A DNA stretch of 63,226 nucleotides from an uncultured Chlorobiaceae bacterium. Its GTDB lineage: Bacteria > Bacteroidota > Chlorobiia > Chlorobiales > Chlorobiaceae. Within the stretch, counting starts at the first letter, position 1. Each line of letters begins with the position of its first letter. Of the stretch, positions 12,066 through 27,581 are shown in pieces. The notes below the pieces were generated by a model. That model had not been told where the DNA came from. It ran no database searches and worked only from the letters and a program-made list of their open reading frames with translations. The DNA lies in contig CAIWUU010000176.1 in NCBI GenBank assembly GCA_903915955.1, positions 1 to 63,226 of the forward strand, in the 5' to 3' direction. The translations under genes and the position numbers were made by a program.

Positions 12066-12758
12066 TCAATCCTGTACACAGCGCACTGAAAGACCATCTT
12101 TTTTATCCTGAGCACTTACATTGATAAACGAGCTATCAAAATTAAACTGTGCTGCCCAAGCATGAGTTTTTGAGTCCTCAGAGGCAGACCAGAACCAGGC
12201 ATCTTCGCCAAGAGACTTGAAGAGATCATCTGCCGCTATCCTGATGCCTCCCTGCAGCGCATTAAAATCCATGACATCATCAACGGAAGTATATGGATAG
12301 CGCCAAGCGACTGTTGAATGTGCCTTTTTTGCTGCAGGAACGGGTGCACCAACCAAAACTCGGCCCAAAGCCTTCCACTCCTCATCGCTCGCTATATGCC
12401 AACCCTTTGGAGCAAGACCGCGCGGGTCACTGACGGCATACCAGTTGTACAGGCGTCCATACGTCTTGCCTTTTGCACTATCATTGTTGTAATAACACCA
12501 GACCCCCTCTCCATTGGCTGCTGCAGCAAGCCACTCCGCACTGCTTTCAACCTGGCGGATGGAATCGCCGTTACGGTATTTCGAGACATTCAGATTATCC
12601 TTCATCCACACTTTCCCTCCTTTGGTCACCGTGTTATAACCATAATGATCGATATCGAAAAACCTCTCCCCGGCTTCAGCCCGAAGATATAAAAAGGATG
12701 TGACCACGGTCATCACAAGTATAAGCAACCCGTACGTTCCACCCGGTTTCTGTTTCAT
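12066..12758 (-). CDS. Secreted FISUMP-domain protein
   Basis: Protein of 230 residues with an N-terminal hydrophobic signal ending near AEA. The body matches the Fibrobacter succinogenes major paralogous domain: WMKDNLNVSKYRNGDSI, RLYNWYAV, PKGWHIASDEEWKAL, FWSASE and SVRCVQD. The domain is common in secreted and surface proteins of Bacteroidetes, Chlorobi and Fibrobacteres, and its function is unknown. The gene has the same type of promoter (12834-12889) as the tlpA operon and the adhesin. Confidence 0.8.
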   Translation of the reverse strand: MKQKPGGTYGLLILVMTVVTSFLYLRAEAGERFFDIDHYGYNTVTKGGKVWMKDNLNVSKYRNGDSIRQVESSAEWLAAAANGEGVWCYYNNDSAKGKTYGRLYNWYAVSDPRGLAPKGWHIASDEEWKALGRVLVGAPVPAAKKAHSTVAWRYPYTSVDDVMDFNALQGGIRIAADDLFKSLGEDAWFWSASEDSKTHAWAAQFNFDSSFINVSAQDKKDGLSVRCVQD

Positions 12759-12833: not shown

Positions 12834-12889
12834 AACATAACAGATGCACTCTTAAGAGATTATTAACAAAAACTTAAAAGATTATTAAA
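12834..12889 (-). promoter_or_regulatory. Promoter with 11-bp-periodic TTTAAG boxes (FISUMP gene)
   Basis: On the minus strand, heptamers begin at 12889 (TTTAATA), 12878 (TTTAAGT), 12867 (GTTAATA) and 12856 (CTTAAGA), with an 11-bp period. The -10 hexamer TATGTT begins at 12839, exactly 50 bp from the first box. The -35 is poor, as expected when a response regulator bound to direct repeats replaces it. Two more promoters in the window share this layout. Confidence 0.6.
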
Positions 12890-12950
12890 ATTATCACAAA
12901 TGCTTTTGCCCTGCCATCAGAGTGATAACAAGGCAAAAAGAAGAGGAGAG

Positions 12951-13748
12951 TCAGCCGTTTGTGTAGGTGTGGACGCTATTTTGAGCGGAAGGGAGGTAGT
13001 TCACCCCAAACCAGCAGACCAGAAGCACAAGGAAAGAGAGCGCCAGATACCACTGCAACTTGCCTTGGTCAATCTTGTAACGATACGCATGAAGATAGCC
13101 AAGATAGGCCAGCCAGGACAGAAACGCCCATGTCTCCTTTGGATCCCATGTCCAGTAATGCCCCCAAGCCTCTTTTGCCCACAAAGCTCCAAAGATTAAT
13201 CCGAATGAGAGCAGTACAAAGCCCAGAAGCGCCAGATAGTGAGAAACCGATTCACCGGCTACATTTTCTTTCGATCTCAGTTGAAGAAAAACATTGTGCA
13301 ATGCTGTAACAGAAGAGGCCGCAAGCATCACATAACCAATAAGATAAACAACAACATGCGGTATAAACCACGGACTTTGCAGAGCGGGCATGAGGGTTTT
13401 GTCGAACACCTCAGGATGGTTCATATTGATCACGAGAAAAAACACCGCCAAGCCCATGCAATAGTATTTGAGCCATGTGATCTTCCAGCGATACTCTACG
13501 AGAAACCCGACAAGAGGAATAAGCGCGGCATACCATAACCGTGTTTCGCCCAGTGTCCTGAGTGGCGGACGGTCAAGAAGCGACCAGTACAAGCCTATGA
13601 AGCACACCATCACCAAAGATCCTGCAAAAGAGAGAATAAGTGCAGGAAGTTTCAGCACAGGAGTGCGTCGCGCAAAGAGACCAAGGAGCGAACCCGTCGC
13701 CCAGAAGGCTATAGCCGTTATGGCTGCCGTATTAAAATCAACGATCAT
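12951..13748 (-). CDS. ccsA: Cytochrome c maturation protein, CcsA/ResC family
   Basis: Integral membrane haem-handling protein of System II cytochrome c assembly; 265 residues with about eight hydrophobic segments. The signature WGHYWTWDPKETWAFLSW is the WWD-type haem-binding motif of CcsA/CcmC/CcmF proteins. The start overlaps the end of the upstream ResB-like gene by 4 bp (13745-13748), so the two are coupled. In System II the two proteins form the haem exporter and synthase that attaches haem to CxxCH. The dihaem cytochrome and the Cyc2-like protein downstream are obvious clients. Confidence 0.9.
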   Translation of the reverse strand: MIVDFNTAAITAIAFWATGSLLGLFARRTPVLKLPALILSFAGSLVMVCFIGLYWSLLDRPPLRTLGETRLWYAALIPLVGFLVEYRWKITWLKYYCMGLAVFFLVINMNHPEVFDKTLMPALQSPWFIPHVVVYLIGYVMLAASSVTALHNVFLQLRSKENVAGESVSHYLALLGFVLLSFGLIFGALWAKEAWGHYWTWDPKETWAFLSWLAYLGYLHAYRYKIDQGKLQWYLALSFLVLLVCWFGVNYLPSAQNSVHTYTNG

Positions 13749-14986
13749 GATACCCCCCCTTTCTGCTTAATACCATTCCAGAAAAACATCAAGTTTCCTG
13801 CCATAATCATAAAAAAGCCAAGATAGACTGCCGGAAGCCAAGGGTCACGAATAACTTCTATAAGACTATACTTCGACCATCTCCCAACTTCGTTATCGTA
13901 TCCCATCTGATAGAGCTTCCATCCCATAACGTTTATCGGATGGTTAACCTCAAGAGTCGCTGATGTCTGTTGGCCGCTTTCACCATGTACCGTTACGTCC
14001 GAACGAAATGCTTTCGGTGCACCTGGCATCATAACAAAATAAAGTTCTCTAAACTGTGCCGCATAGGGCTTCATCATGGGGCTGCCGGTGCTGATCCATG
14101 CATCAATCGGTGCAGCGTCAGCACTGGCAATCCTCAATTTTGCAAAGGGAACTCCTGCTTTACTCTCTGCCGGTTCGGGATCTCCGTTTTTTCCCGGGAG
14201 AGCTGAGGGCAAAAAGTCAACCACTTCAACATCGACACCTTTCCACGATGCCTTCGCGCCCTTATGAACAAGGGTAGTCCTCTTTGTTCGTTCTTGAAGA
14301 GGCTGCTCTTTATGTGGATCATACAAAAACAGTTGGGGGGGATACTCCTCCAGAGAAAAGTCATGAAGAACAACAGAAAAAGGCAGCCGTTGCTCGGTAT
14401 CGTTCTCCATTGACCAGGCAAGATTACTCGACTCTCCCTCATCAACCTTCACCACAAGGCGCTGAAGATCAGGAGCGCCAAAAACGCCGCAGGAGAGCGC
14501 TATCCAGAATCCTGCGTGAAACAGGATAAATTGGAGATTCTTCATGTTGAATGGAACAAGCCGCCATGACAGCGAGAGGCCCAGGTTGGCAAGAAAGAGC
14601 ACAACGGTCAGCGCAAACGGCCAGCTCGAAAAAATCTGGTTCACACCAAGCAGGGCAAAGAGAGAACCCGCCATCAGCCCTCCCTGTGGCACAACTCCCC
14701 CGATCAATGAGAGAACTGAAATCGCCACAATAAGGCAAAGACCAAGAGGAATCCCGCCAAACCACTTCACCATCTCATTTTCCCTGAAACCAAGGCCAGT
14801 ACCAAGGATAAGGGCAGCAAAAACAGCAAGAACAACTGCATTGACAGGCAAGCGGAACATCGGAATACCCTGCCCTGAAGTTGCATATTGAACGATAAAG
14901 CCCACAAGAACAGAGAGTGCTGTAAAAATTGAAGATTCCCTGAACTCCCAGGGAACCTGAAACCAGCGACGCCTGACAACCACCAT
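13745..14986 (-). CDS. resB: Cytochrome c maturation protein, ResB/Ccs1 family
   Basis: Protein of 413 residues: four hydrophobic segments in the first 180 residues, a large periplasmic domain (about 200-370), and a last membrane segment (PAVYLGFFMIMAGNLMFFW). The motif HPINVMGWKLYQMGYD near the C-terminal end is typical of ResB/Ccs1. It partners CcsA in System II. The pair is divergent from the cytochrome gene at 15368. Confidence 0.88.
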   Translation of the reverse strand: MVVVRRRWFQVPWEFRESSIFTALSVLVGFIVQYATSGQGIPMFRLPVNAVVLAVFAALILGTGLGFRENEMVKWFGGIPLGLCLIVAISVLSLIGGVVPQGGLMAGSLFALLGVNQIFSSWPFALTVVLFLANLGLSLSWRLVPFNMKNLQFILFHAGFWIALSCGVFGAPDLQRLVVKVDEGESSNLAWSMENDTEQRLPFSVVLHDFSLEEYPPQLFLYDPHKEQPLQERTKRTTLVHKGAKASWKGVDVEVVDFLPSALPGKNGDPEPAESKAGVPFAKLRIASADAAPIDAWISTGSPMMKPYAAQFRELYFVMMPGAPKAFRSDVTVHGESGQQTSATLEVNHPINVMGWKLYQMGYDNEVGRWSKYSLIEVIRDPWLPAVYLGFFMIMAGNLMFFWNGIKQKGGVS

Positions 14987-15074
14987 AGCGATATACCTGA
15001 AATAAGCTTGATTAAGAAAAAACTAACACATCACTGAGGCGGATGTGACATCGTCTAAAATATAACACGACAGC

Positions 15075-15203
15075 GCTGTGAGACAAAGATATTGTTCGCC
15101 CTGATTTAATTTTATGGAACAGTAACCAGCAACGCACCACGATACAATGGTTACCCCGCCAGCCAATTTAACGATTGTTAAATCAATTAAAATTGAGTAT
15201 ACT
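15075..15203 (+). promoter_or_regulatory. Promoter region of the dihaem cytochrome gene
   Basis: In the 380-bp gap between divergent resB and the cytochrome gene, TTGTTA (15175-15180), 17 bp and TATACT (15198-15203) form a good promoter. The -35 is overlapped by the palindrome ATTTAAC-GATT-GTTAAAT (15166-15183), similar in form to CRP/FNR-family sites. The rest of the gap shows nothing recognisable. Confidence 0.5.
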
Positions 15204-15367
15204 GTTGCTTTATCATATCTTTAGTACTGACCAAAAATCGATTGCCGCTTATAGTACTCACAAGTCAAGCCTGAGTTGGATGGGGGCATCGCCTTTATCA
15301 CGTCAGTGAAGAAAAAAAGCTTTTACCGTCAATTGTACAATCATTTGCCAATAAAAACGAAGAAATT

Positions 15368-15955
15368 ATGAAACATTTCGCACAGCTCTGTATGTTGATT
15401 TTCGCTTTTTTTTGTACAACGCAAACACTAAAGTCCGAGAGCATTGGCAAAGCTGATCCAGCAACGGTTAGCACACCAGCCGTTCATCCCGGAAACTTTG
15501 ATAAAGCGGAACTGGCTAAAAAATATAATCTTGCTGAAGGAAAAGAGATCTATACCAACTCTTGTTCAGCATGCCATACTATTGGCTTAGTAGCGGCTCC
15601 GAAAATAAAGGTAGCTACACCAGCCGGTAAAGCTGAGCCAGCAAAGGGTAGCACACCAGCCGCTCATCCCGGCAACATTGACAAAGCGGAACTGGCAAAA
15701 AAATATAATCTTGCTGAGGGAAAAGAGATCTACACCAACTCTTGTTCTGCATGCCATGGCATTGGCTTATTAGCGGCTCCGAAATTTTGTGATATAACGG
15801 CATGGAAGCCAAGAATGGCAAACGGTATGGATACTCTGATCAAGCACACCGTTGAAGGTTTTAATGGCATGCCCTCAAAAGGTGGGATAGACACACTCAC
15901 ATTAGATCAAGCGGCCAATGCGGTTGCCTATATGGTGGACCAATGTCTCTTTTAA
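15368..15955 (+). CDS. Periplasmic dihaem c-type cytochrome with internal duplication
   Basis: Protein of 195 residues with a signal peptide and two identical CSACH haem sites (residues 66-70 and 126-130). Residues about 27-79 and 87-139 are near-identical copies with a period of 60 residues (180 bp). Only the second copy continues into a full cytochrome c domain with a distal ligand candidate Met168 (GFNGMPSKGG). The first copy lacks a following Met, so its haem may be bis-His, five-coordinate or use a residue from the other half. It probably shuttles electrons in the periplasm next to the Cyc2-like outer-membrane protein. Confidence 0.9.
   Translation: MKHFAQLCMLIFAFFCTTQTLKSESIGKADPATVSTPAVHPGNFDKAELAKKYNLAEGKEIYTNSCSACHTIGLVAAPKIKVATPAGKAEPAKGSTPAAHPGNIDKAELAKKYNLAEGKEIYTNSCSACHGIGLLAAPKFCDITAWKPRMANGMDTLIKHTVEGFNGMPSKGGIDTLTLDQAANAVAYMVDQCLF
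15446..15785 (+). repeat. 180-bp tandem duplication inside the cytochrome gene
   Basis: Two direct copies, about 15446-15605 and 15626-15785, offset by 180 bp with only scattered differences. The low divergence points to a recent duplication. Confidence 0.85.
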
Positions 15956-15989
15956 CGGCATGAATTAACAGAATCTTAGCATAATATTT

Positions 15990-16090
15990 GGAGAAATTGA
16001 ATAAAAAGGAGAAATTGTTAAAGGGTCGCTTGGCTAAAACTGAAAGTGAAGAAGCGGGGAGACCCTGTATTGAATTACTTTACTTTTTTT
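15990..16090 (+). terminator. Hairpin and T-rich tract between the cytochrome and the Cyc2-like gene
   Basis: A direct repeat GGAGAAATTG occurs at 15990-15999 and 16008-16017. Then AGGGTC plus GCTT (16022-16031) can pair with AAGC and GACCCT (16052-16066), followed by a T-rich stretch ending TTTTTTTTGTAG. It may terminate the first transcript or structure the leader of the second. Confidence 0.4.
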
Positions 16091-16156
16091 TGTAGTACGA
16101 GCGTTGTGATTTTTAGTAACCCCCATCATTTCATTTAATAACAACAGGAGCGAAGT

Positions 16157-17446
16157 ATGAAAAAAACTAAATTTGCAGCCATTCTTTCACTTGGAATGGT
16201 TCCGGCATTGTTCTGGAGTTCAGAAAGCTCAGCAATACCATCATGGGCAAGGAAATACAATGTCTCCTGTTATATGTGCCACTCAGGATTTCCACAGAGG
16301 AACGCGGTCGGTGAAGCCTTCCAGGCTAATGGTTTCCGTTTCGCTGGAGCCACTGAAGAGGCATTAACAAAACAGAAGAACATCAAAATTGGTAATGACG
16401 AATGGAAGAAATCACCAAATGCGCCTTTCACGGGATCATTCCCTCAGTTTGATCCGCTAAGTATGACACTTGGTGGTAACCTTATCAACTATACAGCCCC
16501 GCAAACCAATAGAACCACCGGTGCATCTACTGGAAAGGTATTCAATTGGACCGCCCCAAACACCGTTTCGATGTTTTACGGTGGCTCGTTGGGTGACAAT
16601 ATTACTTTCTTTGGTCAGATTGGAGGAATCGGCGCAGCGTCCACTGCTGTGTCAAGCAACGCCAAGGTTGTTTTGATGTTGTCTCCCGGTTTCAACTTTT
16701 CAATGGGCACCAACTTCAGCGCTTCTGGCTGGAATGGTTCTGGTGCGGGTGGTGTCGTAAACGTCAGCAATTTACTTCCTGCACCAAATAATTATGCTGA
16801 ACTCCAGTTCACCAGAGGAGAAACTGCTGGATACTCTATTGTTGGTGGTGCCAGTGTAGGCGCACCACCTCTTACTGCTACCGCAGCTAACGAGATTAAT
16901 GATATGGTTTATCTGCGGGCAAAAGCAAAGCTGCTTGGTGCGGGTATGCTCAGCGGAGCCAATGGGACGTTAGGCAATTCGTACAACGGCCTTGACAATC
17001 AGGTAACCGTTGGCCTGGGTCTCTCTTCTGCAAAGAAAAATATTTTCACCGGCAATTATGTGGGCGAAACATTTATCTGGGGTGGAGATGTTCAGGGCGT
17101 GTATAACAACGCTCTCGTTGGTCTTGCTGCCAGCAGAGACCAGGATTTGAATTTAACCAACGTGCGCGGTGACGCTGGCTACTTTATCTATCCTTGGCTT
17201 TTTGCGAAGATTTCTTACAACAACATAGCTGCTCATACTACGGCGAATGCTTTGTCAGGGCTTAATTTCCGCCAGCCGACGATCACCCCATCTGTTGTTG
17301 CATGGGTTGCACCGAATGTGTCAGTGACAGCGACCTACACCACGTACACAAAGGGATGGAAGGAGAGTGCTGCGGTTGGGACTACTCTTGCAAATAATCT
17401 GTCCAATCAGAATACGTTCCGCCTTGCTTTCTCAGCCGGGTTCTGA
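16157..17446 (+). CDS. Cyc2-like outer-membrane cytochrome-porin
   Basis: Protein of 429 residues: signal peptide (1-26), then a short mature N-terminus with one haem site C38-Y-M-C-H42 inside PSWARKYNVSCYMCHSGFPQ. The remaining 370 residues are rich in alternating, Gly/Asn/Thr-containing strands and end in Phe (FRLAFSAGF), the hallmark of outer-membrane beta-barrels. One haem domain fused to a porin is the architecture of Cyc2, the iron oxidase of neutrophilic and acidophilic Fe(II) oxidisers, also reported in some Chlorobi. Fe(II) oxidation is inference; other members of the fused family may use other donors. The gene has its own AGGAG-type ribosome-binding site (CAGGAGCG). Confidence 0.72.
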   Translation: MKKTKFAAILSLGMVPALFWSSESSAIPSWARKYNVSCYMCHSGFPQRNAVGEAFQANGFRFAGATEEALTKQKNIKIGNDEWKKSPNAPFTGSFPQFDPLSMTLGGNLINYTAPQTNRTTGASTGKVFNWTAPNTVSMFYGGSLGDNITFFGQIGGIGAASTAVSSNAKVVLMLSPGFNFSMGTNFSASGWNGSGAGGVVNVSNLLPAPNNYAELQFTRGETAGYSIVGGASVGAPPLTATAANEINDMVYLRAKAKLLGAGMLSGANGTLGNSYNGLDNQVTVGLGLSSAKKNIFTGNYVGETFIWGGDVQGVYNNALVGLAASRDQDLNLTNVRGDAGYFIYPWLFAKISYNNIAAHTTANALSGLNFRQPTITPSVVAWVAPNVSVTATYTTYTKGWKESAAVGTTLANNLSNQNTFRLAFSAGF

Positions 17447-17491
17447 TTATCCTGTAAAAGAACTCTCCTGAAAAGAAGAGTCGTTGAGTCA

Positions 17492-17530
17492 CAGAAAGGC
17501 ATGTTCATCACCAGTGAACATGCCTTTCTG
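17492..17530 (+). terminator. Strong hairpin after the Cyc2-like gene
   Basis: Perfect 16-bp arms at 17492-17507 (CAGAAAGGCATGTTCA) and 17515-17530 with a 7-base loop, 45 bp past the stop codon. The T-tract is weak. Between this hairpin and 17646 nothing is recognised. Confidence 0.65.
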
Positions 17531-17646
17531 TATTCTGGGAGATGCCGTTTGTATTTCTCCCCATATCGACAGTGTTTTACCGCTTGAATCGATTCTCTCA
17601 TTTTTTCCCGGTATTATTCGTTCTGAAACAGGAAACTTCCCTGCAT

Positions 17647-17702
17647 TTTAAGCAAAATTTAAGCATTGATTAATTGTCATTTAAGGTCGAATATGCTATC
17701 AT
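17647..17702 (+). promoter_or_regulatory. Promoter with 11-bp-periodic TTTAAG boxes (tlpA operon)
   Basis: Heptamers at 17647 (TTTAAGC), 17658 (TTTAAGC), 17669 (ATTAATT) and 17680 (TTTAAGG) repeat every 11 bp. The -10 TATCAT begins at 17697, 50 bp from the first box, with TTGTCA at 17674 as a possible -35. The 5' leader to the tlpA start would be about 150 nt. Confidence 0.65.
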
Positions 17703-17856
17703 TAAGAATGAAATAGATCTTGATTCACAGAGCACTCTTCATTTATTCTTATTTTTGCAGCGCAATCACTCGTTGATGGTATAAGTGCTTGATACCTGAA
17801 GAGTTATCATCATATTTTTATTCACGTCTATCTTTTCAACCAAAATCGATACAATA

Positions 17857-18372
17857 ATGGCGCGCTTACAGTGTAAAAAGTTCAGGACGCTGCTTCTTGC
17901 GTCGCTTTTCTGCATCGGCTTCAGTGGTACATCGTACGCCCTTGAGACCGGAGCTAAGGCCCCCGATTTTGAATTGCCCGGGGCACAGGGTACCGTAACG
18001 CTTTCGAAGACATCCGGTTCGTTGCTCTATGTTGATTTCTGGGCATCATGGTGCGGACCATGCAAGCAGTCGTTTCCATGGATGAACGCCATGCAGGAGA
18101 AATACAAAGCTCAGGGGCTGAAGATTATCGGGGTTAATCTCGATGGCAAAACTGAGGATGCCAAACAATTTTTAGCGCAAAATCCAGCCCGATTCACCGT
18201 GGCGTTTGATCCCAAGGGTGTTACACCAAAAAGCTACGGGGTCAAGGGTATGCCTACCAGTTTTCTCATTGGCAAAGATGGTACAATTATTTCTCAGCAT
18301 TTAGGGTTTAACGCTGCTGAGAGCGAAAAACTTGAAAAAGAGATCAAAGCTGCACTGGAGGCAAACAAATGA
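17857..18372 (+). CDS. tlpA: TlpA-type periplasmic thioredoxin
   Basis: Protein of 171 residues with an N-terminal signal (to about SYA, residue 28) and a thioredoxin fold of the TlpA/ResA type. The active site is C66-G-P-C69 in FWASWCGPCKQSFPW, with the cis-Pro loop GVKGMPTSFLIG. Family members reduce disulfides in apocytochrome c or other periplasmic proteins, taking electrons from DsbD/CcdA. A DsbD is encoded 7 kb downstream on the same strand. The gene overlaps the DUF4266 gene by 4 bp. Confidence 0.92.
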   Translation: MARLQCKKFRTLLLASLFCIGFSGTSYALETGAKAPDFELPGAQGTVTLSKTSGSLLYVDFWASWCGPCKQSFPWMNAMQEKYKAQGLKIIGVNLDGKTEDAKQFLAQNPARFTVAFDPKGVTPKSYGVKGMPTSFLIGKDGTIISQHLGFNAAESEKLEKEIKAALEANK

Positions 18373-18608
18373 AAATGAATGTGATTCAGAAACTGCTTCA
18401 TGCCCTGCTCTTAATCATCACACTCGGCTTGTCAGGCTGCTCAATTGGTGAAACGGTTCAACCGTGGGATAAAGCTGTCCTTGCCAGACCGGAAATGACC
18501 TTTGAGGGTGATCCTCTCGACACCAAGTATGTTGAGCACATTTACAGCAGCAAAGAGGCTGCGTCCGGTGGCGCCGGGGTAGGTGGTGGTGGTTGCGGGT
18601 GTAATTAA
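18369..18608 (+). CDS. DUF4266 lipoprotein with Gly/Cys-rich tail
   Basis: A 79-residue protein with a lipobox (LSGC, lipidated Cys24). The conserved middle is QPWDKAVLARPEMTFEGDPLDTKYVEHIYSSKEAASGG in two halves, and the tail is GGGGCGCN. This matches the DUF4266 pattern. Function is unknown. The two tail cysteines in a flexible Gly context could bind a metal or be the substrate of the adjacent TlpA thioredoxin (inference). Its ATG overlaps the tlpA stop, and the DUF3570 gene follows after 27 bp. Confidence 0.82.
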   Translation: MKMNVIQKLLHALLLIITLGLSGCSIGETVQPWDKAVLARPEMTFEGDPLDTKYVEHIYSSKEAASGGAGVGGGGCGCN

Positions 18609-18635
18609 CTGTAATTATAATTTCAGGATACTCTT

Positions 18636-19781
18636 ATGAAATCGGTCCCGACAAAAAAAACATATCTTGTAGGCGCTACCCTTTTTGCCGCAGCTTTAGC
18701 TCTGCCATCATATCAACCTGCCTTTGCAGAAGCCGCACCAGAAAAAGGTATTGTAGCCTTTAAATACCTCAATTATGAGGATAAAGACACCAACCCTGCC
18801 CAGGAGCGGATGGAAATTAGCGCCGCAACAATATCAGTCATGGCACCGATAGCCGGTAAATGGTCTATCAGCACAACCTATACCAACGACTCCGTCTCCG
18901 GTGCATCGCCAAGCCACTACAATGAATATAAGCCAGAATTTGTCTCCGGTGCATCCAAGATAGAAGAAAAGCGGCATGCAGTTGATTTTAGTCTTACCCG
19001 TTATTTCCAGAGAGGAACAATAACTCTTGGGAGTAGCTATTCCAGCGAAAACGACTACATCTCCCGAAGCTACTCTGCCCAGGGGAGCCTTTCCAGCGAG
19101 GACAAGAATACCACCTTCACCCTTGGTGGCAGCTATACCACAGATACCATCAATCCTTCCGATGATGAACCCGGCTTTTTTGAAAAGCGGACTGTTGCCG
19201 GGCTGGTTGGTATTACGAAGGTTTTGACAAAAGTGGATATTTTGCAACTGAACCTCGGCTACTCAAGGGGAAGGGGTTATTTTAATGACCCCTACAAGAT
19301 GTTGGATGCACGGCCTGACAGGCGTGAGAGCGAAACAGTCATGACGCGATGGAACCACCACTTTGATGGAACCGATGGTACAAGCCGGCTCTCCTATCGC
19401 TATTACACCGACACTTTTGGCGTCAATGCCCATACCTTTGGGCTGGAGTATGTTCAGCCAGTTGCCGGTGACTGGACGATAACTCCGTCAGCAAGGTTCT
19501 CCTCCCAGACTGCAGCGGACTTTTACTACCCTATGCCTCCTGAGGGCGAAGGTATAGATCCTACCGGGACATATTCTTCTCTCGATCAGCGCCTTTCCTC
19601 CTTTGGAGCCCTCACGCTTGGGATCAAAGTTGAGAAAAGGATTGCCAAGGATTGGCTGATTGATGCCAAATATGAAAACTATGAGCAGCGTGCCGCCTGG
19701 AGCATGACAGGAGGTGGAGATAAAGGGCTTTCCCCATTCAGCGCCACTTTTGTTCAGTTTGGCATTTCCCGCCAGTTTTAA
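18636..19781 (+). CDS. DUF3570 outer-membrane beta-barrel-like protein
   Basis: Protein of 381 residues with a signal peptide (cut near AFAEA, residue 31), beta-rich throughout, and ending in Phe (VQFGISRQF), which suggests an outer-membrane barrel. Family DUF3570 is regularly seen with DUF4266, TlpA and ApbE genes, and has no assigned function. Near the N-terminus it carries D85-S-V-S-G-A-S-P-S, and again VSGAS at 103-107. The first matches the Asp-x-x-Ser/Thr-Gly-Ala-Ser/Thr acceptor pattern of ApbE flavin transferases, so covalent FMN is a testable idea. Third gene of the tlpA operon. Confidence 0.8.
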   Translation: MKSVPTKKTYLVGATLFAAALALPSYQPAFAEAAPEKGIVAFKYLNYEDKDTNPAQERMEISAATISVMAPIAGKWSISTTYTNDSVSGASPSHYNEYKPEFVSGASKIEEKRHAVDFSLTRYFQRGTITLGSSYSSENDYISRSYSAQGSLSSEDKNTTFTLGGSYTTDTINPSDDEPGFFEKRTVAGLVGITKVLTKVDILQLNLGYSRGRGYFNDPYKMLDARPDRRESETVMTRWNHHFDGTDGTSRLSYRYYTDTFGVNAHTFGLEYVQPVAGDWTITPSARFSSQTAADFYYPMPPEGEGIDPTGTYSSLDQRLSSFGALTLGIKVEKRIAKDWLIDAKYENYEQRAAWSMTGGGDKGLSPFSATFVQFGISRQF

Positions 19782-19799
19782 CCGCATTAGTGTACAAGC

Positions 19800-19835
19800 C
19801 TTCCGATAGCTCGCACAAACACAAGCTGTCGGAAG
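19800..19835 (+). terminator. Hairpin at the end of the tlpA operon
   Basis: CTTCCGATAGCT (19800-19811) and AGCTGTCGGAAG (19824-19835) form a 12-bp stem, one pair being G-U, with a 12-base loop. It is 18 bp after the DUF3570 stop. There is no T-run. Between here and 20040 nothing else is recognised. Confidence 0.5.
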
Positions 19836-20040
19836 CGCTTCGCGTTTCCGTTGATGCGCTACCAAGCAAAGAGCATTATTTTATAGCAACTTGCGGGGAG
19901 CACAGTGTGCAAACAGGCAAGAACTCAGGCCGACTATCTTCCCCCTCATTCTTTTTCGACCCATTGACCAGAATCACTCCAACAGCAGCGAGAAGAACGT
20001 TTGATATTGTTTTGGACTGGAGGGGAAACGATACTGGATT

Positions 20041-20096
20041 TTTAAGTGAAATTTAAGCTTCCATTAATTTTGCTTAAAGAGTGAGATCAGTATCAT
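20041..20096 (+). promoter_or_regulatory. Promoter with 11-bp-periodic TTTAAG boxes (adhesin gene)
   Basis: Heptamers at 20041 (TTTAAGT), 20052 (TTTAAGC), 20063 (ATTAATT) and 20074 (TTAAAGA) repeat every 11 bp. The -10 TATCAT begins at 20091, again 50 bp from the first box. The adhesin ATG is 42 bp past the -10. Confidence 0.65.
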
Positions 20097-20137
20097 GGGT
20101 ATAAAACTTTTACTTTTCATCATTACTGGAAGAAACT

Positions 20138-23100
20138 ATGGCTACTTACAACAAGACGGGTACGGCGGGTAATGATACCATTGGGATTGGCAGCGTAACC
20201 AGTTTGAATGCCCCGCCTTCTGGTTCTGTTTTTAATATTAATGGTGCCGCCGGAAGCGACATCTTCCAATTAAATAACACTGGTAACCCAAGTTACAATT
20301 CCAGGTTTAAGTCTGCTGGATTTGTCGTTTATCCGGCTAACGCTTCTGGCATCATTGTTGTCTCTGGAGCAAGTTCACAAGGGGAAACTTATACCTTCAA
20401 TCTGACAAGCGTCGAGACTCTTGTCTTCTCTGACAAGACGGTCACACTCACATACGCCGACACAACACCGCCTGTATTTGCTTCGGCAGCAGTTAACGGC
20501 TCATCGCTTGTCATGACCTATACTGAGGCGAACACGCTGGATGCGACGAATGTCCCGGCAGCCAATGCCTTCACGGTATCGGGTGGCCACAATGTAACGG
20601 GTGTGGCGGTCAATGCAGCGGCGAAAACAGTAACACTCACGCTTGCAACAGCAGTCGCCAACGGTGAATCGGTGACGGTGGCCTATACCGATCCGACTAC
20701 AGGCAATGATGTCAACGCAATCCAGGATGCAGCAGGCAATGATGCCGTTACTTTGGCGGCGATAGCAGTTACCAACAACACTCCTGTACCCACAAACCAT
20801 GCTCCAACCGGAGCTGTTACTATAACCGGTACGGCAACTCAGGGCCAGATATTGGCCGTCAATACAAGTGCACTTGTCGATGTTGATGGTATTCCATCTT
20901 CCGGTGCCGGTGCACTAAGCTACCAGTGGTATGCCGCTGGAACAGCAATATCTGGAGCAACTGGAACGACGTATACCTTGACACAGGCCCAGGTTGGAAA
21001 CCCTATTACGGTAAAGGCAAGCTACACCGATGGCCTCGGCAAAGCTGAAAGTATGACCAGCTCAGCCACTGCGGTAGTTGCAAATGTCAATGACTTGCCA
21101 ACAGGAAGTGTGACCATAACCGGAACTGCGGCGGCTGGTCAAACACTCACCGCAAATAATTCTCTGGCTGATCTCGACGGACTTGGCACAATCACCTATC
21201 AGTGGAAGGCTGCCGGTACGCCCATCTCTGGCGCAACTGCAAACACCTGTCTCTTGACTGCCGCTGAGGCCGACAAAACCATCACCGTAACGGCAAGCTA
21301 CACCGACTTGCTTGGTACTGCCGAAAGCATGACCAGCGCCCCCACGGCAATCGTATACAGTAACCATTCCCCCACTGGCTCGGTGACAATTACCGGTACT
21401 GCTGCTCAAGGCCAGACACTCACAGAAAGCCATACGACGCTTGCGGATGCTGACGGGCTTGGAACCGTCACTATACAGTGGTATGCCGCTGGAACAGCAA
21501 TATCTGGCGCAACTGGAACGACGTATACCTTGTCACAGGCCGAGGTTGGAAAAGCTGTAACGGTAAAAGCAAGCTATACTGATCTTAAAAGTGTCGCAGA
21601 AAGTGTCTCCAGTACGGCGACCGCCTCTATTGCCAATGTCAATGATTCCCCGACAGGGAGTGTAACCATAACAGGAAATGCGGCGACAGGTCAGACGCTC
21701 ACCGCCAGCCATACACTTGCTGATCTTGACGGCCTTGGCACCATCAGCTTCCAGTGGAAGGCTGGTGGCACTGCGATAACGGGAGCAACAGGAACTACCT
21801 ATATTGTGACGCTGGCTGAGGCTGGCCAAACCATCACGGTGACGGCAAGCTACACTGACCTGCTCGGCGCTGCCGAAAGCATGACGAGCGCCGCCACCGC
21901 CGCAGTTTTCACAAACCATGCTCCAACCGGTTCGGTAACTATTACTGGTTCAGCAACGCAAGGCGGCTCCCTGAGCGCCAATACAACCACGCTTGCCGAT
22001 ACCGATGGTATCCCCTCATCCGGCACAGGTGCATTGAGTTACCAATGGTATGCAGGCACGACGGCTATCTCTGGCGCTACGGGAGTCAGCTATACGTTGA
22101 CGCAGGCGGAGGTTGGAAACGCAATAAAGGTAACAGCCAGCTATACTGACCTCATGGGCGCTGCCGAAAGTGTCACCAGTGGGGTGACAGCCGCTGTTGC
22201 CAATGTCAATGACACTCCGACAGGCAGCGTAACGATTAGCGGAGCAGCCTCACGGGGAGCAACACTGACAGCAGATATCAGCTCACTGGCCGATGCTGAT
22301 GGACTTGGCACCATCAGCTACCAATGGAAAGCTGCGAATGTCAACATTGCCAATGCAACCAGCAGTACCTATATCCTGACTGCAGACGAGGTAGGAAAAG
22401 CTGTTACTGTTGTGGCAAGTTACACCGACGGCTACGGAGCCAGCGAGAGCGTTACCAGCTCCGCAACAGGTGCTGTGGCAGACCATCAAAATAATAGTCC
22501 GACAGGCACGGTCACCATTGCTGGCTCAGCAACGCAAAATGCACTACTGACTGCATCAAATACTCTGGCAGATGCTGATGGCATTCCTTCATCCGGCGCT
22601 GGCGCAATCAGCTACCAGTGGAAAGCTGGCGGCAGCGCTATCAGCGGAGCAACCAGCAACACCTATACGTTAACAGAAGCGGAGGTTGGCAAAACGGTCA
22701 CCGTTGTGGCCAGCTATACTGACGGCTTTGGGGCCCAGGAGCAGGTTGCCAGCACTGCCACCGGCGCCGTTGCTAACGTCAACGATCCTGCGACAGGGGG
22801 TGTTACCATTACCGGCACAGCAACGCAAGGGCAGCAATTGACTGCATCACACACGCTTGCCGACCTTGACGGCCTTGGCACCATCAGCTACCAGTGGAAG
22901 GCAGGCAACAGCGTTATCAGCGGAGCAAACAGCAATACCTATACGTTGACAGAAGCTGAGGTCGGAAAAACAATCACCGTTGTGGCAAGCTATACCGACC
23001 TCCATGGTACCGCAGAGCCTCCCGTTCCCAGTGCCGCAACCAGCGCCGTTGCGAATATCAACGATGCGCCGACAGGCAGTATTACCATTACCGGCACAGC

Positions 23101-24742
23101 AACACAAGGGCAGCAATTGACTGCATCACACACGCTTGCCGACCTTGACGGCATTAAGCTTGATACCATCTACTACGATTGGGAGGCAGATGGAGTTGAT
23201 ATCAGTGGCCCTAACGGCACCAGCACCCATACGTTGACAGAAGCTGAGGTCGGCAAAAAAATGACTGTAGTGGTCAGCTATACCGACGGCCATGACACCG
23301 TAGAGGAGGTCACCAGCACTGCCACCGTCACTGTTGCGAATATCAACGATGCGCCGACAGGCAGTGTTACCATTACCGGCTCCACAATGCAGGGGAAGAC
23401 GCTTACGGCCGCCAATACTCTGGTCGATGCTGACGGCATTCCTTCAGTCGGCGCTGGTGCAATAAGTTATCAGTGGTATGCAGAAACTACTGCAATCTCT
23501 GGCGCTACAGGAGCCAACTATACCCTTACGGCAAATGAGGTGAACAAAAGCATCAAGGTTGTGGCAAGCTACACTGACGGGCATGGAACTCAAGAAAGTG
23601 TGCCGAGCGATACAGTTCTTTTTGGTGCCGAACTGGGCGGAATTACTACCGTCCAAAATGTTGCCGCACTGCATTCTCAACTTGATAATCGTGTCCCATC
23701 CACAGGTTTTGCTGATGTCAAGGCCGGAATGGATGCCTATTACGCGACTCTCCCCACAGCAACAACTGATGTGTCGGTACGCTCCGTCACTGTTACCTCG
23801 GCAGGCTCACTTGATATGTCAGCCTCTGCACACGAAGCGCTCGTCATAGATACTACAGGGTTGCCCTCTGGATCACAACTGGATCTGAACAACGTAGACT
23901 TTGCCATTATCATCGCCAGCGAAAACCATATCACTAAAATACGTGGCGGAGCAGGCAATAACATTGTTTTTGCAGGCAGTGGCCAGCAGGACATTCTCCT
24001 TGGTGCTGGTGATGATATCCTGCACGGTGGCGCTGGTGATGACACTATTGGCTCACTGGAAGGGAACGACCAGCTTTTTGGTGAGGATGGCAACGACTCT
24101 CTCAGCGGCGGAGTTGGCGATGACACGCTGACCGGCGGCAGTGGTAATGATACGCTGGATGGTGGTACTGGTAATGATACTGCTGTTTTTAGCGGAGATT
24201 TTGCCAATTACACGATCAGCTTTGATGGATTTTCCACCCACACAGTCAAAGATAACGTCGGTACCGATGGTACAGATGCCGTCACGGGTGTCGAATACTT
24301 TACGTTTGGCACTGCTCAACCCATACCAATTGACACAACCGCTCCAACCCTGAGTTCCGTCAATCCTGTTAACGCAGCCACAGGCGTTGCTGTTGGCAGC
24401 AATCTTGTTTTCACCTTCAGTGAGGATGTCAGAAAGGATGCCGCCATTGAAGTCCGTACAGGATCAGATACTGTATCACCTGTATCTGCAAGCGCGACGG
24501 TATCGGGAAAAATACTCACCATTGATCCGACGGCTAATCTGTCGAACAGCACCCATTACCACGTAACCTTTGCCAGCGGCAGTATCCACGACCTCTTTGG
24601 CAACAGTTATGCGGGAACGACATACGACTTCACAACAGCGGATCCCTATGCAGGAGACAGTAACGACAGCAGCAGTGGTGGCGTCGGAGTGGCGATAGGT
24701 GGGGTGGGTGGGCTTGGTTTGCTTGCATGGCTGCTCTTTTAA
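20138..24742 (+). CDS. Giant Ig-repeat/RTX adhesin
   Basis: A 1534-residue surface or secreted protein. There is no Sec signal at the N-terminus; NKTGTAGNDTIGIG opens a short RTX-like start. A SwmB-type domain follows (about 108-214), then ten tandem Ig-like repeats of about 90 residues, each opening with PTGSVTITG-like and holding YQWKAAG and SYTDG blocks. Next come calcium-binding RTX nonapeptides (GGAGDDTIG, GGSGNDTLDGG, about 1280-1350) and a Big_5-type Ig domain (TLSSVNPVNAATGVAVGSN). The C-terminus ends in a Gly-rich hydrophobic tail, GGVGGLGLLAWLLF. Type I secretion is likely, but no secretion genes are in the window. It separates DUF3570 from apbE. Confidence 0.88.
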   Translation: MATYNKTGTAGNDTIGIGSVTSLNAPPSGSVFNINGAAGSDIFQLNNTGNPSYNSRFKSAGFVVYPANASGIIVVSGASSQGETYTFNLTSVETLVFSDKTVTLTYADTTPPVFASAAVNGSSLVMTYTEANTLDATNVPAANAFTVSGGHNVTGVAVNAAAKTVTLTLATAVANGESVTVAYTDPTTGNDVNAIQDAAGNDAVTLAAIAVTNNTPVPTNHAPTGAVTITGTATQGQILAVNTSALVDVDGIPSSGAGALSYQWYAAGTAISGATGTTYTLTQAQVGNPITVKASYTDGLGKAESMTSSATAVVANVNDLPTGSVTITGTAAAGQTLTANNSLADLDGLGTITYQWKAAGTPISGATANTCLLTAAEADKTITVTASYTDLLGTAESMTSAPTAIVYSNHSPTGSVTITGTAAQGQTLTESHTTLADADGLGTVTIQWYAAGTAISGATGTTYTLSQAEVGKAVTVKASYTDLKSVAESVSSTATASIANVNDSPTGSVTITGNAATGQTLTASHTLADLDGLGTISFQWKAGGTAITGATGTTYIVTLAEAGQTITVTASYTDLLGAAESMTSAATAAVFTNHAPTGSVTITGSATQGGSLSANTTTLADTDGIPSSGTGALSYQWYAGTTAISGATGVSYTLTQAEVGNAIKVTASYTDLMGAAESVTSGVTAAVANVNDTPTGSVTISGAASRGATLTADISSLADADGLGTISYQWKAANVNIANATSSTYILTADEVGKAVTVVASYTDGYGASESVTSSATGAVADHQNNSPTGTVTIAGSATQNALLTASNTLADADGIPSSGAGAISYQWKAGGSAISGATSNTYTLTEAEVGKTVTVVASYTDGFGAQEQVASTATGAVANVNDPATGGVTITGTATQGQQLTASHTLADLDGLGTISYQWKAGNSVISGANSNTYTLTEAEVGKTITVVASYTDLHGTAEPPVPSAATSAVANINDAPTGSITITGTATQGQQLTASHTLADLDGIKLDTIYYDWEADGVDISGPNGTSTHTLTEAEVGKKMTVVVSYTDGHDTVEEVTSTATVTVANINDAPTGSVTITGSTMQGKTLTAANTLVDADGIPSVGAGAISYQWYAETTAISGATGANYTLTANEVNKSIKVVASYTDGHGTQESVPSDTVLFGAELGGITTVQNVAALHSQLDNRVPSTGFADVKAGMDAYYATLPTATTDVSVRSVTVTSAGSLDMSASAHEALVIDTTGLPSGSQLDLNNVDFAIIIASENHITKIRGGAGNNIVFAGSGQQDILLGAGDDILHGGAGDDTIGSLEGNDQLFGEDGNDSLSGGVGDDTLTGGSGNDTLDGGTGNDTAVFSGDFANYTISFDGFSTHTVKDNVGTDGTDAVTGVEYFTFGTAQPIPIDTTAPTLSSVNPVNAATGVAVGSNLVFTFSEDVRKDAAIEVRTGSDTVSPVSASATVSGKILTIDPTANLSNSTHYHVTFASGSIHDLFGNSYAGTTYDFTTADPYAGDSNDSSSGGVGVAIGGVGGLGLLAWLLF
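20800..23620 (+). repeat. Ten tandem ~280-bp Ig-like repeat units
   Basis: Units open at the sequences encoding NHAPTG, VNDLPTG, SNHSPTG, VNDSPTG, TNHAPTG, VNDTPTG, QNNSPTG, VNDPATG, INDAPTG and INDAPTG. Adjacent late units are most alike, which suggests recent unequal recombination. Confidence 0.8.
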
Positions 24743-24776
24743 ACAAAGACAATTTTTCTGACTGGTAAAACATAGT

Positions 24777-25667
24777 ATGGAGATTTATCGCTTCGGGTTT
24801 GATGCTATGGGGGGAAATGGTGAGGTCGTTATTGCGTTGAAGAAAAAAAAAGAGGCTCATGCCATAGCCAATCTGGTTCTTGAAGAGGTGGGGAGAATCG
24901 AGTACAAATACTCCCGTTACCGCCCGGAGAGCATTGTTTCGAGGATTAATGCCGCCGCCGGTCGTGACTTTGTTGCCTGTGATGACGAGACGGCTGCATT
25001 GATTCAGTATGCCGATACTCTTTACGAGAAAAGTGACGGCCTGTTCGATATTACGTCGGGGGTATTGCGCCATACCTGGGATTTCACCAAGGGCAACCTC
25101 CCTGATCCAGTAAAACTTTCTGAACAGCTTCCTCTTATCGGCTGGCAACGGGTGGAACGGCAAGGAAATGCCATTCGCCTGCCTGCTGCCGGAATGGAGA
25201 TTGATTTTGGCGGATTTGGAAAAGAGTATGCTGCTGACCGGTCTGAGGAAATCGTGCTCAACAGCGGGGTGAAGCATGGTTATGTGAACCTTGCGGGCGA
25301 CATCAGGGTTGTGGGCCCAAGACCTGATGGAAAGCCCTGGGTTATTGGCATTCAGGATCCCCGACACAAAGAGCGCACCATAGCCTCAATTCCTCTCTAT
25401 ACCGGAGCATTGACAACCAGTGGTGATTATGAACGGTATTTTGAAGTTAACGGAAAACGATATTGTCACATTATTCACCCGAGGAGTGGCTATCCTGTTA
25501 CCTTCTGGCGATCTGTAACGGTTGTTGCCCCCTCAGCCATTACTGCCGGAAGCTGTACGACCATAGCAATGCTTAAAGAGGCTGACGGATTAGCCTTCCT
25601 TGAAAATTCAGGGTTTGGATACTTGGCAGTTGACCAGCTCGGAATCATCTATCACAAAAACAACTAG
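24777..25667 (+). CDS. apbE: FAD:protein FMN transferase (ApbE)
   Basis: Moves FMN from FAD onto a Ser/Thr of target proteins. The 296 residues carry the family motifs DFGGFGKEYAADR, VNLAGDIRVVGPRP, TSGDYERYFEVNGKRYCH and HIIHPRSGYPV, the last two lining the flavin and magnesium site. Unlike classical ApbE, it starts directly with catalytic-domain sequence and has no signal peptide or lipobox; a TGA at 24759-24761 rules out an upstream extension. It follows the adhesin by 34 bp and precedes dsbD by 42 bp. The target is unknown; DUF3570 is the nearest protein with an acceptor-like motif. Confidence 0.92.
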   Translation: MEIYRFGFDAMGGNGEVVIALKKKKEAHAIANLVLEEVGRIEYKYSRYRPESIVSRINAAAGRDFVACDDETAALIQYADTLYEKSDGLFDITSGVLRHTWDFTKGNLPDPVKLSEQLPLIGWQRVERQGNAIRLPAAGMEIDFGGFGKEYAADRSEEIVLNSGVKHGYVNLAGDIRVVGPRPDGKPWVIGIQDPRHKERTIASIPLYTGALTTSGDYERYFEVNGKRYCHIIHPRSGYPVTFWRSVTVVAPSAITAGSCTTIAMLKEADGLAFLENSGFGYLAVDQLGIIYHKNN

Positions 25668-25709
25668 TATCTCTTAAGCTTTACAGTAATTTTTTTACCG
25701 GAACACAAC

Positions 25710-27581
25710 ATGAACCACTTCTCGCTCAAGGGAGCTACCGCTGTTGTTGCCATACTGTTGGCACTCATCCTCCGTGTGAGCACAGCCTTTTCTGCAGAAT
25801 TTCTTGATCCTGAACAGGCATTCAAAATCAAGGCTGAGCTGAACAACGCGGGAAAAGTGTCTGTACATTGGGATATTGCCAAAGGGTACAAACTGTATCG
25901 CGACAAGGTGACTGTCGGTATAGACAAGGGCAAGGCAGAGGTGAAAAGCCCGGTCATGCCGAAAGGAATCATCTTTACGGATCCCACAACGAACGAAAAG
26001 ATGGAGATCTATCACGACAAACTCGATGTGGAGGTACCTCTCGTCAAAGCTGATGGAGCTTTCACCCTCAGCGTAGGATACCAGGGTTGTGCAGAAGATG
26101 GCCTCTGTTATCCACCCATAACAAAACTCTTCAAGGTTGACCCAAGCAAACCCGGAGCACTGTCGACAGCCATTGAGCAGAGTGCCGCTGCGTCACCCGC
26201 AATAACTCCTGAAACACCTGCCACGCCACCCTCATCGCCGCAGACTCCTGCCAACTCAGCAAAAGGGGACTCGACAAAGAGTGATCTCTCTCTCATAGCA
26301 TCGACACTTTCCGGTGGAAGTCTCCTGAAAGTATCTCTGGCGTTCCTTGTATTCGGGCTGCTTTTGTCGTTTACTCCCTGCGTCTTGCCAATGTTGCCTA
26401 TTCTCTCCTCCATCATTGTGGGAGAGGGAAAAGTGACGCGCAGCCGCAGCTTTTTGATGGCTCTTGCTTATTGCCTTGGGCTGGCGCTGGTCTATACCGC
26501 TCTTGGTGTCGCCGCCGGACTTGCGGGTGAAGGCCTCTCTGGCGCTATGCAAAAGCCGTGGGTGCTTATCATGTTTGCTTTGCTGCTTGTACTGCTTTCT
26601 CTCTCCATGTTTGATGTCTATCAGTTGCAAATGCCAGCCTCGCTGCAAAGCAAGCTTGGTAAAGCATCGGGTGGATTAAAAAGAGGTCGCTTTGTCGGGG
26701 TGTTTTTCATGGGTGCATTATCGGCTCTGATTGTCGGTCCATGTGTTGCCGCACCGCTCGCAGGAACTCTTGTCTATATCAGCCAAACTCACGACGTACT
26801 ACTCGGAGGAGTCGCCCTCTTTTCCATGGCTATGGGCATGAGCGTCCCTCTGTTACTTGTTGGTTTATCCGCTGGCAGCCTGCTGCCTAAAGCTGGATTA
26901 TGGATGATCAGCGTGAAGTATGTTTTCGGTCTTCTCCTGATTGCGGTCGCAATATGGATGGTCTCTCCGGTTTTGCCTGCTCAGGTTCTCATGATCTTCT
27001 GGGGTGCGTTTGCCATCCTCTGCTCGTTCTTCCTTGGTCTTTTCGATCCTTCACCAGTGAAAGCCACTATCGCTCAGCGCTTTGGCAAAGCTACCGGTGT
27101 TGTACTCTTTGTGTTCGGCATATTGGAACTTGTCGGTGCAGCTTCAGGGAGCGCCAATGTGCTTGAACCACTTTCAAGTATTCGCGGAAACTCGGTAGCT
27201 GTTGGCGGAGAAGAGAAGAAAATAAGCTTCACCCGAATAAAAACAGTTGTAGAACTGGATCAGGCGCTGCTCTCAACATCAACACCGGTAATGCTCGATT
27301 TCTATGCGGACTGGTGTGTATCGTGCAAAGAGATGGACAAGTTCACCTTTCATGACCCCAGGGTTATGAGCAAACTCAATACCCTGACGTTGCTCCAGGT
27401 TGATGTAACAGCCAATACCCCGGATGATCTCGCCTTGATGAAGCGCTTTGGCCTCTTTGGCCCTCCAGGCATTGTCTTTTTCGACCGCACGGGAAAGGAG
27501 CTTCCTGATGGGAAAATCGTAGGCTTTCTTGAGGCTGCTCCCTTTTTAGATCATATCAACAAGTTTGTAGTTGGGAAGTGA
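25710..27581 (+). CDS. dsbD: Thiol:disulfide interchange protein DsbD
   Basis: Carries reducing power from cytoplasmic thioredoxin across the inner membrane. The 623 residues comprise a signal peptide, an N-terminal alpha domain with the Cys pair in YQGCAEDGLCYPP, a proline-rich linker (about 150-190), and eight membrane segments with the two transmembrane cysteines in TPCVLPM and GPCVAAP. A C-terminal thioredoxin domain carries FYADWCVSCKEMD. It likely feeds TlpA and so keeps apocytochrome CxxCH thiols reduced for the CcsA-ResB system. Confidence 0.95.
   Translation: MNHFSLKGATAVVAILLALILRVSTAFSAEFLDPEQAFKIKAELNNAGKVSVHWDIAKGYKLYRDKVTVGIDKGKAEVKSPVMPKGIIFTDPTTNEKMEIYHDKLDVEVPLVKADGAFTLSVGYQGCAEDGLCYPPITKLFKVDPSKPGALSTAIEQSAAASPAITPETPATPPSSPQTPANSAKGDSTKSDLSLIASTLSGGSLLKVSLAFLVFGLLLSFTPCVLPMLPILSSIIVGEGKVTRSRSFLMALAYCLGLALVYTALGVAAGLAGEGLSGAMQKPWVLIMFALLLVLLSLSMFDVYQLQMPASLQSKLGKASGGLKRGRFVGVFFMGALSALIVGPCVAAPLAGTLVYISQTHDVLLGGVALFSMAMGMSVPLLLVGLSAGSLLPKAGLWMISVKYVFGLLLIAVAIWMVSPVLPAQVLMIFWGAFAILCSFFLGLFDPSPVKATIAQRFGKATGVVLFVFGILELVGAASGSANVLEPLSSIRGNSVAVGGEEKKISFTRIKTVVELDQALLSTSTPVMLDFYADWCVSCKEMDKFTFHDPRVMSKLNTLTLLQVDVTANTPDDLALMKRFGLFGPPGIVFFDRTGKELPDGKIVGFLEAAPFLDHINKFVVGK

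Follow-up and report, generated by a model that had tools for sequence, protein, structure and literature searches.

A conserved four-box promoter module of the Chlorobiaceae and its candidate two-component regulator

Which regulator, if any, stands behind a promoter layout that recurs before three separate transcription units of one contig? We addressed this question in an uncultured Chlorobiaceae bacterium (GenBank assembly GCA_903915955.1), starting from contig CAIWUU010000176.1 (C176 in our numbering of contigs). The whole of this 63,226-nucleotide stretch is referred to here as the window, and it belongs to a 2.52-Mb genome that is 97.8% complete. The layout, termed here the four-box module, is 56 bp long and comprises four hexamers with an 11-bp period, followed by a -10 hexamer that reads TATNNT in all three copies:

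17647..17702, plus strand: module A, TTTAAG-CAAAA-TTTAAG-CATTG-ATTAAT-TGTCA-TTTAAG-N11-TATCAT, with the -10 at 17697-17702
20041..20096, plus strand: module B, TTTAAG-TGAAA-TTTAAG-CTTCC-ATTAAT-TTTGC-TTAAAG-N11-TATCAT, with the -10 at 20091-20096
12834..12889, minus strand: module C, TTTAAT-AATCT-TTTAAG-TTTTT-GTTAAT-AATCT-CTTAAG-N11-TATGTT, with the -10 at 12839-12834

These exact sequences bear out the initial annotation, which had placed the boxes at offsets 0, 11, 22 and 33 and the -10 at offset 50 in all three promoters, and had described the box at offset 22 as (A/G)TTAAT(T/A). With up to three mismatches allowed, the full pattern matches modules A, B and C and nothing else in the window, and 100 dinucleotide shuffles yielded no match. 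On a looser four-box score the modules reach 24, 23 and 23. Everything else in the window scores 21 or less (mostly modules A, B and C in other registers), and eight Markov surrogates never exceeded 19. The shared four-box promoter module is real, as these counts confirm.

We identified seven module sites in the whole genome and none with a reversed-pattern control. The scan relaxed the third box, included the -10 and allowed at most three mismatches in total, and the longest downstream open reading frame was taken as the target:

Site 1, minus strand: before the FISUMP gene at 12758
Site 2, plus strand: before tlpA-DUF4266-DUF3570
Site 3, plus strand: before the gene for a 1534-amino-acid (aa) RTX/ZirU-like surface protein
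Site 4, C79:7911 (locus L036): before an operon encoding a DUF4405 membrane protein, a response regulator and a histidine kinase
Site 5, C145:325 (L004): before the gene for a 64-aa membrane protein that by eye looks like the beginning of the DUF4405 protein and has no Pfam match
Site 6, C78:2904, minus strand: before a zinc-ribbon protein gene, followed by one for a second FISUMP protein
Site 7, C78:5107: before the gene for a 193-aa membrane protein, followed by one for a cytochrome with 20 CXXCH motifs

Placement across the genome is non-random, every site preceding a gene for a secreted, membrane or redox protein or the regulator operon. The 193-aa membrane protein of site 7 has a weak ferric-reductase-like match that falls below the cut-off. 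The cytochrome encoded directly behind it (520 aa, L252:4282-5844, on G000:C78) carries its 20 CXXCH motifs in near-identical repeats (CAECHRTTKWKPATFDHKNLAASDAKKCISCHKA).

The module is confined to the family and conserved between its species. We compared 86 family genomes from two genera with an outgroup of 308 genomes from the same phylum. A stricter pattern was found in 66 of the 86 family genomes, with no control matches; a relaxed pattern, tuned after the regulator-operon sites had been seen, was found in 79 of the 86, with two control matches. Outside the family, near-perfect matches in 4 of 308 genomes, against one control match, amount to background. Conservation between species, proposed earlier as a check on the module, is thus evident, and the sites lie upstream of orthologous genes. 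When loci were fetched by protein homology and not by motif, a module was present within 500 bp upstream of 28 of 30 tlpA homologues and 22 of 30 FISUMP homologues (none in shuffled upstream regions of either set). At 28 homology-chosen regulator loci it precedes DUF4405, in most cases 650-690 bp upstream of the regulator gene.

Box-defined sites at the homology-chosen loci have TANNNT at offset 50 in 28/28, 26/32 and 23/27 cases, and other offsets are near background. Boxes 1, 2 and 4 have a conserved G as their sixth base (0.89-0.94). The promoters had been described as having a poor -35. This holds across about 80 homology-chosen sites, where TTGACA at spacers of 16-18 is no better than background, and fails for module A, which has a fair -35 (TTGTCA at 17674, 17-bp spacer) and an extended -10. 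The lack of a recognisable -35 across the set suggests an activator that occupies the -35 region. For OmpR/PhoB-family regulators, direct repeats are the rule, and they are bound as tandem dimers. The module has the form of an operator of this family, with direct repeats of about 11 bp upstream of a -10 and in place of a -35 (module A having its fair -35 as well).

The genome encodes four OmpR-family regulators, and one of them lies in an operon preceded by the module:

G000:C79:8579-9253 (L036:1066-1743): candidate response regulator, 225 aa, in the operon DUF4405 membrane protein - response regulator - histidine kinase

A receiver domain (PF00072, E 1.5e-27) and a winged-helix Trans_reg_C domain (PF00486, E 1.8e-26), both matched above cut-off, place this protein in the OmpR/PhoB family. 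An orthologue is present in 79 of the 86 family genomes, and six of the seven genomes that lack it (G003, G015, G016, G020, G029, G039 and G077) are without any module. With the relaxed pattern, the module is present in 78 and absent from 1 of the regulator-bearing genomes, versus 1 and 6 of the others (Fisher p = 1e-7); with the strict pattern the counts are 65 and 14 versus 1 and 6 (Fisher p = 5e-4). The strict comparison is less circular because the operon site of our own genome is not matched by that pattern. On a marker-gene tree, parsimony explains the regulator absences by four changes, and well-supported branches require no fewer than two of these. The tlpA homologues in four regulator-less genomes lack the module. 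Two PhoB-like paralogues (C55 and C77, 82% identical), which together with the linked regulator made up this comparison, occur in six of the seven genomes that have no module, and their presence is not linked to it. The recognition helix of the candidate hardly differs between the two genera, as expected if its operator is conserved.

The reading that best fits these observations makes the module the operator-promoter for one OmpR/PhoB-type two-component system of green sulfur bacteria, most likely with the response regulator of the DUF4405 operon as its regulator. An OmpR/PhoB-type regulator had been suggested from the repeats; the suggestion is now supported as the best explanation and acquires a specific candidate, through the module before its operon and the co-absence of the two. 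A membrane or periplasmic signal would activate the histidine kinase, and the phosphorylated regulator would dimerise and place two tandem dimers head to tail on the four 11-bp-spaced TTTAAG-like boxes, all on the same face of the helix. Of the bound subunits, the proximal one would take the place of the -35, 11 bp from the -10, and recruit sigma-70 polymerase in a class II-like activation. The module upstream of the regulator operon would be a putative autoregulation site.

Several observations weigh against this reading. No module precedes eight of the 30 FISUMP homologues, and several tlpA paralogues in regulator-bearing genomes are likewise without one. The co-occurrence is partly circular, as loss of the operon also removes the operon's own module. 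Genome G077 (85% complete) has modules, and the regulator was not found in it. The tlpA comparison by itself (module in 0/4 regulator-less genomes versus at 7/16 regulator-bearing comparison loci) is not significant. Finally, the base-contacting residues T187, N188, V192, H195, N196 and R210 of PmrA correspond to T, S, V, T, F and R in the candidate; three are changed, so the resemblance of the boxes to PmrA sites does not follow directly from the recognition helix.

That resemblance is close. Boxes 1 and 2 equal the Acinetobacter PmrA (BasR) motif TTTAAG-N5-TTTAAG (TTTAAGNNNNNTTTAAG), and in modules A, B and C they fit exactly the operator YTTAAK-N5-YTTAAK, built on the Salmonella YTTAAK repeat (PMC10927774). 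PmrA is likewise an OmpR/PhoB-type regulator of an 11-bp-period direct repeat. However, its sites have two boxes, whereas the module has four in fixed register with the -10, and the targets identified here are redox and surface genes rather than lipid A modification genes. The candidate scores 154.5 bits against the PmrA equivalog profile (cut-off 330) and is 34% identical to Escherichia coli BasR.

QseB also recognises CTTAA-type direct repeats (PMC10714720), and ygiW-qseBC resembles the system described here in its autoregulated regulator-kinase operon, autoregulation being putative here. In G025, G026 and G030 about 620 bp separate the site from the DUF4405 gene downstream, a gap that in G025 and G026 holds a BOF (YgiW-fold) gene. 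Most operons in the family, however, begin with DUF4405 and not with BOF, and there is no known hormone or quorum link; the candidate reaches 144 bits against the QseB profile (cut-off 345). For Mycobacterium tuberculosis PhoP, binding is tighter when three or four motifs stand in tandem than when there are two (PMC4832192). The sites of mycobacterial PhoP and of E. coli PhoB share the 11-bp-period direct repeats but differ in box sequence, and the PhoB profile gives 196.6 bits (cut-off 296.2). The nearest of the named families is the heavy-metal subfamily CusR/CopR/SilR (TIGR01387, 224.9 bits, cut-off 279.2), and identity to E. coli CusR is 44%. The candidate passes none of these equivalog cut-offs, and its profiles and contact residues rule out naming it PmrA or QseB on box resemblance. 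The module would thus work like a PmrA/PhoP-type site, with a candidate regulator that, judged from its sequence, we assign to none of those families.

Could a different regulator, outside the DUF4405 operon, bind the module, with that operon merely one of its targets? Neither the site before its own operon nor the co-absence proves that the linked regulator binds the module, the recognition-helix contacts differ from those of PmrA, and the co-occurrence comparison took in three of the four regulators, all but C79:32575. Nevertheless, the genome has just four OmpR-family regulators, and of those compared only the linked one is absent in step with the module; we regard this alternative as improbable. 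We also give little credence to the idea that the boxes are Pho boxes of a PhoB-like regulator (C55 or C77), and the set of targets a phosphate regulon. Both proteins belong to the same family, which binds 11-bp direct repeats in place of a -35, and they show 36-37% resemblance to E. coli PhoB. However, besides their presence in most module-less genomes, nine genomes are without them, and the module is present in eight of these nine. No phosphate-transport gene occurs among the targets seen, and the module precedes the operon of a regulator other than these two.

That the boxes are phased AT-rich tracts (an UP element or intrinsic bending) read by no specific regulator would fit an AT-rich, 11-bp-phased element directly upstream of a -10, but has next to no probability given the strong directional conservation (that of the sixth-base G in boxes 1, 2 and 4 included), the zero or near-zero matches of the reversed pattern, the restriction to one family and the co-occurrence with one regulator. 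Recent local duplication of one promoter, a thought invited by the position of modules A, B and C within 7.3 kb, is ruled out by the low identity of the inter-box spacers (27-38% between modules) and is equally at odds with the A and B upstream flanks (29% identical), the unlinked sites elsewhere in the genome and the orthologous sites across two genera.

The genes assigned to the three window modules, and the neighbouring genes that complete a known gene cluster, are the following:

12066..12758, minus strand: secreted FISUMP (Fib_succ_major) protein, 230 aa, Pfam PF09603 (E 1.6e-39), target of module C, which lies 76 bp upstream of its ATG
17857..18372, plus strand: TlpA/ResA-like secreted thioredoxin (Pfam AhpC-TSA/Redoxin), first gene of the operon behind module A
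18369..18608, plus strand: DUF4266-like lipoprotein, 79 aa, with a C-terminal CGC motif, assigned by position and CXC motif and not by profile
18636..19781, plus strand: DUF3570 protein (PF12094, E 2.5e-64) in which the motif SGAS occurs twice (residues 88 and 104)
20138..24742, plus strand: surface protein, 1534 aa, target of module B, with SWM repeats, RTX repeats and Big_5 (Pfam), ZirU family (NCBIfam NF040485, above cut-off)
24777..25667, plus strand: ApbE flavin transferase (PF02424, E 8e-73), with no module of its own within the window
25710..27581, plus strand: DsbD thiol:disulfide interchange protein (PF02683 and PF11412)

A DsbD-type flavinylation cluster consists of ApbE, DUF3570, thioredoxin-like, DUF4266 and DsbD genes, and a [ST]GA[ST]-type motif (as SGAS) in DUF3570 was shown to be flavinylated in a test protein from Chlorobium luteolum, according to passages of PMC8238504. 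All five genes are present at 17857-27581, with DUF4266 assigned solely from its position and CXC motif, and the window thus has every gene that those passages describe. It differs in the insertion of the RTX/ZirU-like surface protein, which has its own module copy. The same passages contain nothing on regulation of the flavinylation cluster.

Regulon contents across the family were sampled from the matches listed. Among these, the targets in relatives include thioredoxins (L211, L246), a thioredoxin reductase (L204, whose site is a long way upstream), a secreted carboxypeptidase-regulatory-like protein (L250), a cation efflux protein (L224) and a P-type ATPase (L244). Taken with the multihaem cytochrome, the flavinylation cluster and the DUF4405 proteins, such annotations lead us to infer a common theme of extracytoplasmic redox and metal handling alongside surface proteins, and the targets suggest a regulon for envelope electron and thiol transfer together with surface proteins. 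The initial annotation had spoken of a surface regulon; the targets are envelope or redox genes, and the description is better refined to envelope redox plus surface than to surface alone. The open-licence literature searched yielded no account of a regulon or binding site belonging to any two-component system in green sulfur bacteria. We tentatively propose that one dedicated two-component system with an unusually rigid four-box promoter may control the envelope electron traffic of these bacteria (flavinylated DUF3570, thioredoxins, DUF4405 membrane proteins and the 20-haem cytochrome) plus surface adhesion, possibly as a switch to contact with minerals, partners or oxygen. The module, its candidate regulator and the defined list of targets make it possible to ask by experiment under which conditions the DUF3570/DUF4266 flavin electron transfer system is used, through the condition that switches on the module. 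The four-box module, with its rigid distance to the -10, also offers a clean natural test case for tandem-dimer activation.

Exact four-box matches in a species collection number 29, and Chlorobiaceae or Chlorobium records account for more than half of them. Runella, Clostridium and a Coriobacteriia metagenome-assembled genome (MAG) have matches that lack TANNNT at offset 50, and Arcicella has TAGTTT there; we regard all of these matches as chance or unrelated. The Runella species (L162, L171, L179, L180) have a TTTAAG four-box array of the same spacing that may be the site of an unrelated regulator. The Coriobacteriia MAG (WREJ01; L160, L173, L176, L183, L184) has five stretches of tandem TTTAAG/TTTAAT repeats with a period of about 11 bp and no -10 at offset 50. 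Some relatives (L010:578, L012:661, L013:478) have a second four-box variant in which box 2 is shifted by one base and TATTAT lies near offset 49; it precedes the gene for a secreted protein of about 175 aa that adjoins the regulator operon.

The histidine kinase of the operon (L036:1740-3206) and its orthologues have a periplasmic part with a conserved LSWC motif and a variable stretch rich in acidic residues, His and Lys, both of which are places for candidate sensor residues; as a guess, LSWC could hold a redox- or metal-sensing residue. A regulator-kinase fusion, hinted at by long open frames, was dismissed, as the frames reflect only the in-frame stop between the two genes. Second or third copies of the regulator, 63-69% identical to that of our genome, occur in G033, G034, G037, G038, G061, G063, G066, G071, G073, G075 and G080, and in G033 a homologous kinase gene lies directly behind a module (L213). 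The extra copies and the G033 kinase suggest an expansion of the system.

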